A stretch of DNA of 64,000 bases from an uncultured Clostridia bacterium (lineage in GTDB: Bacteria; Bacillota; Clostridia; Oscillospirales; Acutalibacteraceae). Below the pieces are notes generated by a model that saw only the letters and a list, made by a program, of their open reading frames with translations, was not told the DNA's origin and searched no databases. The position numbers were made by a program, and so were the translations under genes. Positions 2,587 through 48,889 of this stretch are shown piece by piece. Position 1 is the stretch's first letter; each line of letters starts with the position of its first letter. The stretch lies in contig CALWVN010000001.1 in NCBI GenBank assembly GCA_944384995.1, positions 124,001 through 188,000 on the forward strand, given 5' to 3'.

Positions 2587-3252
2587 ATGCTTTTAGATAT
2601 TCTGCGAGGCGGATTTGATCCGATCGCTTTGATCGCGGGCTTGTTTGCCTCCGTATTCGTGGTTTTTTGCACTATGCCTGTGCATGAGTGTGCACATGCT
2701 TTTGTCGCCAACAAACTCGGCGACGGTACGGCGCGCCTGTCCGGACGTATGACGCTTAATCCCATGAAGCATATCGACCCCATCGGCGCGCTGATGATTA
2801 TTTTGGTCGGCTTCGGATATGCAAAGCCTGTCCCCGTCAACCCGCGCAACTTTAAAAACCCGAAAACCGGTATGGCGCTGACAGCGCTGGCGGGGCCTGT
2901 ATCCAACCTCCTTATGGCGGCGATTTTTATCCTGCTTAAAAATATTGTCGGGTTGTTTCCTGCGACCAATGTGTTGGCGACGGCGCTGTATCTCTTTTTC
3001 ACGTATGCCGCGATCATCAATATCGGTCTTGCCGTGTTTAACCTGATCCCTATACCGCCGCTGGACGGTTCGCGTGTACTGCAGCTGCTGATCCCCTCCA
3101 AATATTATTATAAATTTCTGCAATATGAGCGTTATATTGTCTTGATCGTATTTGCACTTTTGTTTTTCGGTGTGCTCAGTCGTCCGCTGGCATACTTGGA
3201 GACGGTGATCTTCAACGGCTTGGACTATGTCATTGGGTATCCGTTTCGCTGA
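2587..3252 (+). CDS. Site-2 protease family membrane metallopeptidase (M50)
   Basis: A 221-residue integral membrane protein of the rhomboid-independent S2P/M50 family. The zinc motif HECAH is at residues 33-37 within the first hydrophobic segment, and the third metal ligand is the aspartate of IPIPPLDGSRVL (D160). Four to six membrane segments are evident. It is a short member without a PDZ domain, like YwhC, so it is unlikely to be RseP/SpoIVFB with their extra domains. Such proteases cut membrane proteins; the substrate here is unknown. It precedes scpA by 11 bases, an arrangement found in many Clostridia. Confidence 0.92.
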   Translation: MLLDILRGGFDPIALIAGLFASVFVVFCTMPVHECAHAFVANKLGDGTARLSGRMTLNPMKHIDPIGALMIILVGFGYAKPVPVNPRNFKNPKTGMALTALAGPVSNLLMAAIFILLKNIVGLFPATNVLATALYLFFTYAAIINIGLAVFNLIPIPPLDGSRVLQLLIPSKYYYKFLQYERYIVLIVFALLFFGVLSRPLAYLETVIFNGLDYVIGYPFR

Positions 3253-3263
3253 GAGGTCGCTGT

Positions 3264-4004
3264 ATGGAGGAGATTTCCTATAAATTAGAGGTGTTTGAGG
3301 GCCCTATGGACCTGCTTTTGCACCTCATTTCCAAACACAAGCTGAATATTTACGACATTCCGATCTTTACGCTTGTCGAGCAGTATACTGATTATGTCAA
3401 ACGTATGCAGGAAGAGGACATGTATGTCGCCAGCGCCTTTTTGGAAATGGCGGCTCGCCTCGTTTACATTAAAACCGTTTCACTCCTGCCTGTCTATGAA
3501 GAAGCGGAAGAATTGAAAAAAGAGCTGACAGGCGAGCTGCTTGAATATCGGGATTGCCGTCTGATGGCGGAAAAGCTGTCACATCAAACGGAGGGCTTTG
3601 ACCGCTTTGTACGAGAGCCTACTGAGATTGAAGCTGACCCCACCTACACGCGGCTGCATGAGCCCTCGGAGCTTTTACGGGCGTATATGAGCGCGGTCGG
3701 TAAGCGGCTTCGTAAGCTTCCGCCGCCTGTAGAGGCATTCCGCGGCATTGTGGCGACTAAGATCGTCTCAGTGGAGTCCAAGATCAAGTCTATTTATTAT
3801 ACACTTAAGCGTAAAGGCAAAAAACAGCGGTTCCGTTCGCTGTTTGCCGATGCGCAGTCCAGATCCGATCTGGTAGCGACCTTCCTCGCCGTGCTCGAAC
3901 TTGCTAAAGCCAAGAAACTGCGTGTGCAGGGGGATGGCGATACAACGGATGTTGAGCTTTTAACGGAAGACTTTGGGGACTTCGGTTCCAAAGAATGGGG
4001 GTAA
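3264..4004 (+). CDS. scpA: Segregation and condensation protein A
   Basis: A 246-residue kleisin that bridges the SMC heads together with ScpB to form the bacterial condensin. The N-terminal region has the family signature LEVFEGPMDLLLHLISKHKL, followed by IYDIPI and the acidic helical middle. The C-terminal winged helix (about residues 165-235) contacts the SMC head, with the family-typical FLAVLELAK motif near 213-221. The scpB start lies 10 bases before its stop, so the two subunits are translationally coupled. Confidence 0.96.
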   Translation: MEEISYKLEVFEGPMDLLLHLISKHKLNIYDIPIFTLVEQYTDYVKRMQEEDMYVASAFLEMAARLVYIKTVSLLPVYEEAEELKKELTGELLEYRDCRLMAEKLSHQTEGFDRFVREPTEIEADPTYTRLHEPSELLRAYMSAVGKRLRKLPPPVEAFRGIVATKIVSVESKIKSIYYTLKRKGKKQRFRSLFADAQSRSDLVATFLAVLELAKAKKLRVQGDGDTTDVELLTEDFGDFGSKEWG

Positions 4005-44346: not shown

Positions 44347-45828
44347 ATGCAATCATCCAAAGCGACTAAAACGAAAAAGGGCTTTTGGAATCCTTTCAGC
44401 AAGGATGCCGAAGAGGGCTGCGTGCCGAACCGTGAGCTGCTGGCATATTCTGCCGCACTGACGGGGCAGAATATGGCGTATGTGTTTGTGTCGCAGTGGC
44501 TTTTCTATTTCTGCACAAACATTTTGCGCATTTCACCTGCGCGCGTCGGTTTCCTGACAGGCTTCACGCGGATTTGGGACGCGATCAATGATCCTATCGT
44601 CGGCGCTATAGTGGATCGCCGTAAATGCAAAGACGGCAATAAGCTGCACCCGTATCTCGGGAAATTGCCGATTGCCATCGGTGCGTTGACGGCGCTGATG
44701 TTCGTGGATTTCGGCGTTGGGGAGACGGCGGCGCTTGTGATCCTGCTTTGTGTCTACATTGCGTGGGATGTGACCTATTCTTTCCAAGATGTTGCCCTTT
44801 GGGGTATGATGTCTCTGATCTCGCCGCTTCCGCATGAGCGTTCCCGCGTTTCGCAGTGGCTGAACATCGGCGTCGGCGCAGCGTGGGGTGTAACGAGCCT
44901 TGTGCCGCTTATCATGGGGGCGCGTGAGGCGATCGGCATCAGTGAAAAAACGCTGTTTTTACTGTTCGGTATCGTATTTGGCTTCGGCGGAGAATGCTTA
45001 TCGATCCTTGCGAGTAAAACAAAGGAACGCGTTGCATATGTGGAGAACCGCCGTGAGCAGTCTCTGTTGCAGGACTTGGCACTGCTGCGGCACAACAAAA
45101 TTTTGATCCTGCTGCTGCTTGCGCAGATTTTAAATTTCCTTAACGGCGCGGTGCCGCAGATTTATTTTTTCCAGTACTGTGTTTCTGTGCAGGTCGGCAG
45201 TACAACGCTCAACGGTGAGACCGTTCAATTTTACTACGGGATTTTAGTCAGCGTGCTGTCTGCCGTAAGCATGTTCTTTGCCGTCAAGCTGTCGGATAAG
45301 ATCGGCGGCATGCGGAATATCGTGATTTTAGCACAACTTATGAATATTGTTTTCCGCGTTGCAGCGTATTTTGTCGGCTTCCAAACGCTGCCGCAGATGC
45401 TGCTTGTCGTGCTTCTTATCTCCATTTCCTCCATACCCGTCAATATGGTTGGCATTGCGCAGCGTTCCATTCTCTGTGACGCGGTGGATTATGTGGAGTG
45501 GAAAACGGGTAAACGTACGGAGGGTATCAGCAACTCTTTACAGAACCTCACCAACAAACTGACGGATGCACTCAAGCTGATGACCAGTGGTTTGGTGCTT
45601 ACAGCCCTCGGCTTTAGTGCGGATTTGGGGAATGCCGGGCAGCCTGAGATCTTCTATCGCGCGCAGTGGCCGCTGTTCATGCTGTTGCCTGCGCTCGGTT
45701 CGGCTTTGTATTTGATCCCGTTTTTGTGTATCCGCTATTCCAAAGAACAAAAAGCACGTGTCGAGCGCGAGCTCGCCAAACGCCGCGCAGCGGCGCAAGC
45801 CGAGGATGAAACAAAGGCGCAGGCATAA
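44347..45828 (+). CDS. GPH-family sugar:cation symporter (MFS, MelB-like)
   Basis: A 493-residue transporter with 12 predicted helices, of the glycoside-pentoside-hexuronide:cation symporter family. The loop GFTRIWDAINDPIVGAIVDR holds the family motif (AITDPIIG-like). YSFQDVALWGMMSLIS, the helix 10-11 loop with RSILCDAVDYVEWKTGKR (DxxDYxE..TG) and the basic tail also fit. Substrate is unknown. It is 41 bases after ispF and 18 bases before a GtrA gene, so it may share their transcript. Confidence 0.9.
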   Translation: MQSSKATKTKKGFWNPFSKDAEEGCVPNRELLAYSAALTGQNMAYVFVSQWLFYFCTNILRISPARVGFLTGFTRIWDAINDPIVGAIVDRRKCKDGNKLHPYLGKLPIAIGALTALMFVDFGVGETAALVILLCVYIAWDVTYSFQDVALWGMMSLISPLPHERSRVSQWLNIGVGAAWGVTSLVPLIMGAREAIGISEKTLFLLFGIVFGFGGECLSILASKTKERVAYVENRREQSLLQDLALLRHNKILILLLLAQILNFLNGAVPQIYFFQYCVSVQVGSTTLNGETVQFYYGILVSVLSAVSMFFAVKLSDKIGGMRNIVILAQLMNIVFRVAAYFVGFQTLPQMLLVVLLISISSIPVNMVGIAQRSILCDAVDYVEWKTGKRTEGISNSLQNLTNKLTDALKLMTSGLVLTALGFSADLGNAGQPEIFYRAQWPLFMLLPALGSALYLIPFLCIRYSKEQKARVERELAKRRAAAQAEDETKAQA

Positions 45829-45846: not shown

Positions 45847-46341
45847 ATGCAAAACGTCCGCAGTCTGCTCAAAAAACATAAAGAACTGATATTATATGTT
45901 ATTTTCGGCGGGCTGACGACGCTTGTCAACTATGTGGTTTACTTCCTTTGTAAGGCGGTTGGGCTATCTTATTCGCCCGCAACGGTTGTTGCCTGGCTTG
46001 TAGCCGTCGGCTTTGCTTATGTCGTCAACCGCGTATGGGTGTTTGAAAGCAAAAGCTGCGGCGTGCGTGCCGTACTTCGTGAAATCGTACTGTTTGTCGG
46101 GGCACGGCTGCTTTCTCTGGTTTTGGAGCTTGCCGTGATGTTTGTCGGCATGGATCTGCTGCACGCGGGACACCTCATCATCGTGATCTCTGCGACTGCC
46201 TTGCCGCTCGGCGAGTTTCTGACCAAGACCGTTGCGCAGATTCTTGTGGTGCTTTCGAACTACGTGTTCAGCAAGCTCGTGATTTTCCGCAAGCAACGTT
46301 CTCAAAGCGCCGATCCCGGCGAAACGCACGAGAACACATAA
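45847..46341 (+). CDS. GtrA family membrane protein
   Basis: A 164-residue protein with four membrane helices. The opening KELILYVIFGGLTTLVNYVV and VVAWLVAVGFAYVVNRVWVF are diagnostic for the GtrA/DPMS family. These proteins are thought to flip polyprenyl-linked sugars or teichoic acid precursors. They usually accompany a GtrB-like GT2; here the closest candidate is at 26182, far away. The polar tail runs to the stop at 46341. Confidence 0.9.
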   Translation: MQNVRSLLKKHKELILYVIFGGLTTLVNYVVYFLCKAVGLSYSPATVVAWLVAVGFAYVVNRVWVFESKSCGVRAVLREIVLFVGARLLSLVLELAVMFVGMDLLHAGHLIIVISATALPLGEFLTKTVAQILVVLSNYVFSKLVIFRKQRSQSADPGETHENT

Positions 46342-46426: not shown

Positions 46427-47317
46427 ATGAAAACCGTAACAAAAGCTTTGTCTGTTTTGCTCGCACTTGCACTGGTTGTCGGTTGTTTTGCCGCCTGCGG
46501 CAGCGACACTGCGAATGATACCACGACGCCTGCTGCGAATGCAGCGCTGGTAAAAGTCATTGACATTGAATTGACCGAGGAGTACTATGGCTTCGGCGTG
46601 GACAAAACCCAGCCGGAACTTCTTGAGCAGGTGAACGAATTTATTGCGGAGATCAAAGCAAACGGGCAGCTGCAGGAAATTTTTGACAAATACTTTGTCG
46701 AAGGCGGCACGCCTTCACCTGTGACCTCTGCGGAGCTTGACGAAAGCAAAGATCAGCTTGTCGTCGCGACCAATGCGGAATTCCCGCCTTTTGAATATAC
46801 GGAAGGTACCAGCTATCTCGGTGTAGATATGGAACTTGCCGCCCTGCTTGCGCAGAAGCTTGGCAAAGAGCTGGTTATCCAAAACATGGACTTTGATGCC
46901 GTTTGCCTTTCTGTCGGCAGCCAGATGTGCGATATCGCTTTAGCGGGCTTGACGATTGCTACGGACCGTGAAGAAGCTGTTATGTTCTCGGATTCTTATT
47001 ATCAGGCATCGCAAAAGCTTATCGTTCCTGCAAGCGATACGACTTTTGATAATTGCACTACGGCGGATGAGGTTCTGTCCATTCTGCAGGGCTTTGATTC
47101 CAGTGTACGTATCGGCTACCAAACCGGCACTACGGGGCAAAAATATACGGAGTCGACGAACGACTATGAAAGCAACGCCTTGAAAGTAACGGCGACCGGC
47201 TACCAGAGTGGCGCTTTGGCAGTACAGGCCATGGTCAACGGCAATCTGGATTATGTCATCATTGATGCTGCACCTGCACAGTCCATTGCGGATTCTGTCA
47301 ACGGCGTCACAGCATAA
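46427..47317 (+). CDS. Polar amino acid ABC transporter substrate-binding lipoprotein, apparently circularly permuted
   Basis: A 296-residue SBP_bac_3-type lipoprotein with a signal peptide and lipobox cysteine (C20 or C24, AACGS). The order of its parts is unusual. Residues 42-90 (VKVIDIELTEEYYGFGVDKT to EIFDKYF) are the segment that in ordinary family members ends the protein. After a linker (about 91-106) the normal N-terminal lobe starts at DQLVVATNAEFPPFEY (109-124). The protein stops at residue 296 in QSIADSVNGVTA, just where that terminal segment would follow. The permease and ATPase genes follow. The substrate is probably a polar amino acid. Confidence 0.92.
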   Translation: MKTVTKALSVLLALALVVGCFAACGSDTANDTTTPAANAALVKVIDIELTEEYYGFGVDKTQPELLEQVNEFIAEIKANGQLQEIFDKYFVEGGTPSPVTSAELDESKDQLVVATNAEFPPFEYTEGTSYLGVDMELAALLAQKLGKELVIQNMDFDAVCLSVGSQMCDIALAGLTIATDREEAVMFSDSYYQASQKLIVPASDTTFDNCTTADEVLSILQGFDSSVRIGYQTGTTGQKYTESTNDYESNALKVTATGYQSGALAVQAMVNGNLDYVIIDAAPAQSIADSVNGVTA

Positions 47318-47403: not shown

Positions 47404-48123
47404 ATGGATAATTTCGGTCAAAGGGTAGAAAAATTTATATCCCTTTTCCAGGGTGGCAGTGCGGACGCCTATATCTCCGATATTTTGACAGGTTTACAGA
47501 ACACAGTCAAAATAGCGGTTCTGGGACTTATCATCGGTATCGTCATCGGTACGCTGATTGCCGCTGTTCGTGTCATGCCGAAATATAAGCGGCTGCCGCG
47601 GGTGCTTAACGCCATTTGCGGCGTGTATGTCGGCTTTTTCCGCGGGACGCCTATGGTGGTGCAGTTACTGTTATTCTACTATGTTGCACTGCCGCTGATG
47701 GAAATTCACGCCTCCTCCGTAGCGGTCGCAATCACCGTGTTCGGTATGAATTCCGGTGCGTACATATCCGAGATCATGCGCGGCGGGATCATGTCGGTCG
47801 ACCCCGGGCAGATGGAGGGCGGTCGTTCTGTCGGCTTGAGCTTTGGCACGACAATGATGAAGATTGTCATTCCACAAGCGATCAAAAACATTATCCCGAC
47901 ACTTGGCAACGAATTCATCACGCTTGTCAAGGAAACTTCGGTCGTCAGCTTCGTCGGCGCTACGGATTTGTATGTGGCTTTCCGAAAGATCGGTACAAAC
48001 ACCTATGAGTTTATGGTGCCTTATATTGTTATGGCGCTGATTTATATTGTGCTGGTGCTGCTGATTACCGCGCTCATTAAACTCGTGGAGAGGAGGCTGC
48101 GTAAAAGTGATCGAGGTCGTTAA
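47404..48123 (+). CDS. Amino acid ABC transporter permease (HisM/GlnP type)
   Basis: A 239-residue inner membrane permease. It has about five helices, the [17 protein letters not shown] segment and the EAA loop [23 protein letters not shown] that docks on the ATPase. [23 protein letters not shown] is also family-typical. As the only permease gene in the operon it would form a homodimer. Its last 17 bases overlap the ATPase gene. Confidence 0.94.
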
Positions 48124-48889
48124 CTTAAATAAATCGTTCGGGGATCTGCATGTCCTCAAGGACATCAGTACCACCATTCAAAAGGGCGAAAAGGTCGTTG
48201 TGATCGGGCCGTCCGGTTCGGGCAAGAGTACGTTTTTACGCTGTCTCAACTGTATGGAGGATCCTACTTCCGGCAGCATCCTGTTTCATGGTGTGGATCT
48301 TACGGATATGAAGGTGGATATCAATCTGCATCGGCAGAAAATGGGGATGGTGTTCCAGCATTTTAATCTGTTCAACAACAAAACCGTGCTGGAAAATATA
48401 ACCCTTGCGCCCGAATATATCGAGAAGAAGCAGATGCGAAAGCTGAAATTGCGCAGGAAATCGGGCGCTGAAATTAAATCCGCAAAGCAGATCAAAGAAG
48501 AAAATAAGGCTCGCGCCATGGAGCTTTTGGAGCGCGTTGGGCTTTCTGACAAGGCGGATGCGTATCCTTCACAGCTGTCCGGCGGGCAGAAACAGCGCGT
48601 AGCAATCGTGCGTTCGCTTGCCATGCAGCCGGAGGTCATGCTGTTTGACGAACCGACATCGGCGCTCGACCCGGAAATGGTCGGCGAGGTTCTGGAGGTC
48701 ATGAAGGATCTTGCCAAAAGCGGTATGACAATGGTTGTCGTGACGCATGAAATGGGCTTTGCACGCGAGGTTGCGGACCGTGTTTTGTTCATGGATGAAG
48801 GCAGGATCTTGGAAGAGGGGACGCCGGACGCGATCTTCAACCATCCGCAAAATGATCGGTTAAAAGAGTTTTTGTCCAAAGTGCTGTAA
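48107..48889 (+). CDS. Amino acid ABC transporter ATP-binding protein (GlnQ type)
   Basis: A 260-residue ATPase. Walker A is [15 protein letters not shown], the Q-loop is [12 protein letters not shown], the signature is [18 protein letters not shown], and Walker B is [17 protein letters not shown] with the switch [13 protein letters not shown]. Compared with ordinary GlnQ there is an insertion of about 20 basic residues in the helical subdomain ([20 protein letters not shown], about residues 106-125). It starts with GTG 48107 within the permease gene. A terminator follows. Confidence 0.94.

Follow-up and report, generated by a model that had tools for sequence, protein, structure and literature searches.

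The locus analysed here raises the question of whether the binding protein of a common type of bacterial transporter can carry the normal end of its domain ahead of the normal beginning and, if so, how that order came about and what it does to the protein. Within the window, the stretch of 64,000 nucleotides from an uncultured Clostridia bacterium that we analysed, one gene encodes a lipoprotein for which an earlier note had claimed precisely this: that residues 42-90 are the usual end of a family-3 solute-binding domain, that its usual start lies at about residue 110, and that the arrangement is a permutation and not a duplication. The gene and its parts are as follows:

46427..47317, plus strand: circularly permuted SBP_bac_3 lipoprotein (P0001) in the type I order described below, 296 amino acids; open reading frame and coordinates exact
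46427..46498, plus strand: lipoprotein signal peptide up to the lipobox residue Cys24, from the sequence; C24 invariant in 19/19 aligned proteins
46550..46699, plus strand: residues 42-91, normal C-terminal part of the domain, from Pfam and PDB sequence matches
46700..46753, plus strand: linker, residues 92-109 (18 residues), from the normal C-terminus to the normal N-terminus, from the alignment and linker measurements
46754..47314, plus strand: residues 110-296, normal N-terminal part, from Pfam and PDB sequence matches

We take Cys24 to be a lipobox cysteine. With lobes named after E. coli GlnH, residues 42-91 presumably comprise the last strand of lobe 2, hinge 2 and the last helices of lobe 1, and residues 110-296 the N-terminal part of lobe 1, hinge 1 and lobe 2 minus its last strand.

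Both boundaries claimed in the earlier note are borne out by Pfam and PDB matches. Residues 111-220 match positions 1-98 of the Pfam profile SBP_bac_3 (PF00497; gathering score 26.4 bits), and residues 37-91, when residues 1-110 are searched alone, match positions 97-131 of 132 with 31.6 bits. The native protein scores 104.3 bits, above the gathering score, in two stretches of exchanged order, whereas the rotated protein scores 111.8 bits in a single stretch covering positions 1-131. In a sequence search of the PDB, residues 110-285 align with residues 11-172 of AncQR (4zv1), and residues 40-91 with residues 181-232 of the same chain. Against a profile of relatives in the canonical order, the best single stretch of the native protein reaches 148.6 bits (positions 2-172), and the protein rotated to start at residue 91 reaches 167.2 bits (2-219); when every possible rotation was scored, the top seven began at residues 79-119, with residue 91 ranking first. 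The whole-sequence score, which sums the stretches, shows no gain (176.6 bits native, 175.8 rotated), and three canonical controls gain at most 0.4 bits on rotation. No match runs end to end in the native order, and each part of the domain is present once, which rules out a duplication or a two-domain protein. Thus, the window protein is a circular permutation of a family-3 solute-binding protein with one copy of each part.

The order, C-terminal part before N-terminal part, is conserved over the whole protein in 19 genomes, each from a different species; because of this conservation, the order is neither a chance event nor an assembly error. That the gene is degenerate or chimeric, two half domains brought together by a sequencing or assembly error, has a negligible probability: many of the genomes are metagenome assemblies, but the gene is intact and conserved in the 19 genomes, type I is also found in the named strain record of Mediterraneibacter massiliensis Marseille-P2086 (L110), and the operon is kept.

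An AlphaFold2 model of the window protein, computed from a 19-sequence alignment (mean pLDDT 86.2, pTM 0.73), contains many strands and helices, with ten-residue blocks of residues 41-290 at pLDDT 87-98; confidence is low for the signal peptide and the first linker and intermediate for the last six residues. High confidence extends to residues 42-90 as part of the one chain, the separate domain that would have refuted the earlier note was not seen, and the protein would presumably pack as the usual two lobes. In a Foldseek search with this model, family-3 binding proteins rank first. The well-superposed matches mostly cover 172-187 columns of targets with 219-240 residues, at TM-scores by target of about 0.55-0.63; such partial alignment is expected of a permuted protein, because a sequential aligner meets the last 50 residues at the wrong end of the chain. 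The model of a relative cut at another site (type II, from congener G004; pLDDT 90.4, pTM 0.79) returned, at low identity, mainly binding proteins of other families together with regulators and ATP phosphoribosyltransferases; kinship with these was rejected in favour of the same limit of sequential alignment, and the matches lend no fold support by themselves. In GlnH, we take residues R75, D157, G68, T70 and F13 to hold the backbone of the amino acid or to line the site, and the window residues aligned to them, R181, D280, G174, T176 and F119, are invariant in 19/19 proteins. A domain-swapped dimer, in which the N-terminal segment would complete lobe 2 of a neighbouring molecule, is improbable: a linker of about 17 residues permits the exchange and the models are of monomers, but both single-chain models are confident, and all 175 permuted proteins measured have 15-30 residues of linker, which is what closure within a single chain would call for.

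The permuted gene is the first of an operon for a binding protein, a permease and an ATPase, with the following neighbours:

45847..46341, plus strand: GtrA-like membrane protein gene, without an NCBIfam match; helps to mark the chromosomal slot
47404..48123, plus strand: amino-acid ABC permease, single gene, same operon; TIGR01726 (HEQRo_perm_3TM) 78.2 bits, cut-off 42.2
48107..48889, plus strand: ABC ATPase, GlnQ-like, same operon; 308.9 bits to GlnQ

The name GtrA-like is our assumption for the first of these. A gene for a GPH-family symporter (window 44347-45828; TIGR00792, 204.6 bits, below the cut-off of 231.35) precedes it; in congeners G007, G014, G016 and G031, IspD, IspF and GtrA are found without the symporter. 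The ATPase falls below the cut-off of the GlnQ glutamine equivalog (308.9 vs 379 bits) and has a lysine-rich stretch of about 26 residues that is presumably absent from GlnQ-type proteins. Of the type I genes examined, 150 of 157 are followed by a permease, as are 34 of the 36 type II genes; both counts include duplicates and genes at contig ends. The window protein probably serves as a functional binding protein in an amino-acid ABC importer.

Where the relatives are cut was measured on a common profile of 220 positions for 141 type I and 34 type II proteins (175 distinct, identical ends removed). The chain ends at profile positions 165-171 in every type I protein (141/141), and at 91-97 in 27 and 107-109 in 7 of the type II proteins. 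The starts are less sharply defined than the ends: type I chains start at 165-170 in 117/141, and most others start earlier as the match spills into the leader. The linker that bridges the two normal ends is, at the median, 17 residues long in type I and 19 in type II proteins. The cut sites are probably the edges of lobe 2, type II being cut at the other edge than type I, if the lobe limits of GlnH are assumed to apply. By the same presumed limits, the window protein is cut in lobe 2, just before its last strand, and not at the interlobe hinge, where the earlier note had expected the termini. Many type II proteins end directly past the hinge strand, so that only one covalent crossover between the lobes would remain.

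Some relatives are longer. Fusions to the permease occur in type I (L115) and in type II (L162, L171, L172), the latter three departing shortly beyond the hinge strand. Arrays of 748-1224 amino acids (L134, L135, L290) have the hinge at either end and whole domains in between, and those of L134 and L135 continue into a fused permease; the half domains at the two ends may pair, closing the array ring-like. Two other cut sites were searched for with rotated profiles, each in 60 genomes of the class. Near position 46, no short-frame protein spans the model; one 1000-aa array, L290, does (1-210 of 220), and a few canonical-looking rows that reach 180-193 stop inside. Near position 195, 19 rows run from 8-14 to 216-221; 14 of these 19 (L274-L285, L292, L293) and one further row (L291) were fetched, and 15/15 are canonical. 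Cuts deep in lobe 1 are harder to detect with the junction profile of C-part, linker and N-part.

How widespread the permuted orders are was surveyed from genus to phylum. Among 36 genomes of the genus, including that of the window, 16 carry type I, 15 a relative in canonical order that is 35-44% identical where matched, and one another permutation; no relative was found at this level in the remaining 4/36, several genomes being incomplete, and no genome of the 36 carries two of the three. Three of the 16 type I genomes (G015, G016, G030) also bear, elsewhere, type II members of another subfamily (L133, L130, L131). This second binding-protein subfamily is present in the genus and the class in canonical, type I and type II order (G000:C1:31132 (L002), L130, L131, L133, L191, L198), its canonical members being thinly sampled. 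In named genomes, the best 80 loci of a longer list, 56-84% identical, are type I in 80/80, and 77 of these best 80 are classified as Clostridia, Lachnospiraceae and Oscillospiraceae among them. The permuted profile is matched at 1e-50 in 31 of 295 genomes of the order. In the class (391 genomes), the profile of C-part, linker and N-part yields at least 82 spanning rows in at least 75 genomes; the 60 of these loci that were fetched all have the C-part before the N-part, 33 as type I, 24 as type II (including L186, which runs off its contig and is of unsure type) and 3 fused to more sequence. Across 398 genomes of the phylum, a strict threshold leaves 5 matches, the window's genome among them, and the sole match outside the class, in G778, is type II (L289). 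At L114 (minus strand of G298:C33, 1988-3770), a single permease and a single ATPase are preceded by two adjacent permuted genes, one of type I and one of type II. The remark in the earlier note on similar layouts in gut Clostridia thus stands, although the existence of several different permutations had escaped it.

Within the genus, the different chain orders share a chromosomal neighbourhood. A GtrA-like relative lies upstream at 13/16 type I, 6/15 canonical and 1/1 type II loci, and either this gene upstream or TrpS downstream at 13/16, 9/15 and 1/1, respectively; at the other 9 loci, neither was found in the stretch examined, which in some cases ends at a contig end. Both neighbours are seen at G015 (type I), G032 (canonical) and G004 (type II), among others. 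Therefore, a single slot is occupied by three chain orders, at least in these three genomes.

The type II gene of G004 provides a direct view of such an event. On the tree, G004 falls in a well-supported (starred) group with 9 canonical congeners. Aligned with the canonical binding-protein gene of congener G008, its blocks 3363-3682 and 2973-3314 correspond to 1302-1621 and 1620-1958, in exchanged order, with DNA identities of 77% for the N-part and 73% for lobe 2 with the C-part; rotation raises the best single match of the G004 protein from 175 to 349 bits. Around it, the DNA of the permease and the beginning of the ATPase shows 78% identity over 1017 columns, that of an upstream gene 69% over 412 columns, and TrpS lies downstream in both. 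A GtrA-like gene precedes the binding protein in G004, and none is present on the 6.3-kb contig of G008. Thus, in this case, which is that of one assembly (75% complete, 298-kb contig), the swap took place within an orthologous gene, in place. The permease and ATPase have remained close to those of the canonical congener, which suggests that docking was probably preserved. The G004 event is young enough for a canonical gene and its permuted orthologue to be compared base by base.

The number of origins was approached with a tree of 94 of 239 de-permuted units after clustering, in which permuted rows are over-represented, having been searched for on purpose; L186, with its contig end, was left out of tree and statistics, L001 and L032 were dropped from the statistics as duplicates of L151 and L145, and L133 was re-cut by hand for the tree. 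Without the arrays, the topology labels need 12 changes, and the starred branches require no fewer than 6 for type I, 6 for type II and 4 for canonical, counts that do not separate gain from loss. Trees in which type I or type II forms a single clade are rejected (p-AU 3.8e-35 and 3.2e-8, respectively). The window's clade is a starred group of 20 rows, 14 type I and 6 type II, and since these also have similar linkers, the type I clade of the window and one type II group may derive one from the other. The canonical L002 is nested among type I rows. Arrays L134 and L135 group apart from the window's clade; L290 is not on the tree. Permutation is thus recurrent among the relatives, at few sites. 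One could instead posit one old permuted or tandem ancestor, followed by differing trimming, reversion and spread between lineages, and not many independent permutations. The mixed window clade, the position of L002 and the blindness of the counts to the direction of change would all agree with such an ancestor, but the rejection of the one-clade trees for both types and the syntenic, in-place swap in G004 amid canonical congeners speak against it, and we regard it as unlikely.

For the permuted order itself, we propose that two copies of the gene were fused in frame, so that the normal C-terminus of the first would have run through a short linker into the normal N-terminus of the second; the first copy would then have lost its front, downstream of the signal peptide, and the second its tail. 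The new linker (median 17 residues) resembles the canonical tether (15) in length and therefore fits a two-copy fusion followed by trimming. Among the relatives examined, none from the window's own clade is a fused intermediate with two copies. The permuted chain would fold into the usual two lobes, clamp an alpha-amino acid in the cleft and dock on the permease as canonical relatives presumably do, a form cut exactly at hinge 1 being expected to retain a single covalent crossover. The lipid anchor would have shifted from lobe 1 to lobe 2, mostly on a short leash. Taken as a whole, this explanation, comprising a functional binding protein for an amino-acid ABC importer, its origin by fusion and trimming and the relocated anchor, is in our judgement very probably correct.

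That the anchor moves to the other lobe, as the earlier note had claimed, follows from the order of the parts, the correction being that the cut lies inside lobe 2 and not at the hinge; by the GlnH lobe limits, the lipidated terminus apparently moves from lobe 1 to lobe 2 with these cuts. The tether is shortened as well. From the lipid cysteine to the domain, the median is 15 residues in canonical proteins (n=37, a set that holds one outlier from the automatic cysteine call), 5 in type I (n=139), and 5 (n=24) and 4 (n=7) in the two type II groups; in a rank test that ignores shared descent, canonical tethers differ significantly from those of type I and from those of the larger type II group. 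The short leash is not universal, as some members of the window's clade, P0001 included, keep long leaders.

Whether these changes matter for transport divides the remaining readings. The permutations may be neutral, the edges of lobe 2 tolerating breaks and the side of the anchor being irrelevant given a permease encoded by a single gene (a homodimer) and a flexible tether. Consistent with this, the permease and ATPase of G004 stay close to those of its canonical congener, and loci with common neighbours in the genus hold canonical, type I and type II genes; the restriction of the cuts to the vicinity of the lobe-2 edges and the shorter tethers argue the other way, although a folding constraint could also explain them. 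We give neutrality a little less than an even chance. More doubtful, and put forward tentatively, is a reading in which natural permutation occurred repeatedly, at three cut sites and in several events, one of them in place and one slot holding three orders, and in which anchorage on lobe 2 was selected, altering how the closed protein is presented to the permease.

Circular permutation is generally regarded as a rare and old event. Here, it is seen again and again, and at the same few sites, in a common component of transporters, and this natural material makes it testable both how permutations arise and whether the side of the tether matters for transport. A warning for annotation also follows: such proteins appear as two partial domain matches, and sequential structure searches align them only in part.

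Among the literature matches listed, we found no open-access description of a natural permutation in SBP_bac_3. The canonical members of this family in cluster F, such as GlnH and HisJ, share with the window protein all segments of the domain, the residues that hold the ligand backbone, the lipoprotein nature and the operon with permease and ATPase; the difference lies in the order of the segments and, by the GlnH lobe limits, in both chain ends being in lobe 2 and not in lobe 1. The closest natural parallel is TpMglB-2 (Tp0684) of Treponema pallidum, a naturally permuted sugar-binding lipoprotein assigned, in the accessible part of its description, to 'Type Ic / Cluster Bc' (PMC4990184). That part of the report presents it as a tethered ABC binding protein that still binds and closes despite its permutation, with relatives in gut Gram-positives, and its authors raised a link between permutation and anchoring (PMC4990184). 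Unlike the window protein, TpMglB-2 has the cluster B sugar fold, with the first three strands of the N-lobe moved to the C-terminus and a fourth crossover, and the portion available describes one topology (PMC4990184), as against several in the SBP_bac_3 relatives. The window protein lies outside Type Ic / Cluster Bc: it belongs to PF00497 and is cut at profile 165-171. The tandem substrate-binding domains of GlnPQ (6h30; PMC8025302) contain the same junction of C-part, linker and N-part as the permuted proteins and are likewise fused to the permease, but they are complete canonical domains in tandem, whereas the arrays L134, L135 and L290 start and end at the hinge. Finally, cut or permuted pieces of binding proteins can fold, as indicated by the accessible part of the work on engineered permuted halves of the Thermotoga ribose-binding protein (PMC9815098) and by the constructs of TmArgBP domain 1 (6y16, 7a99); those, however, were engineered, whereas the permutation described here is natural.
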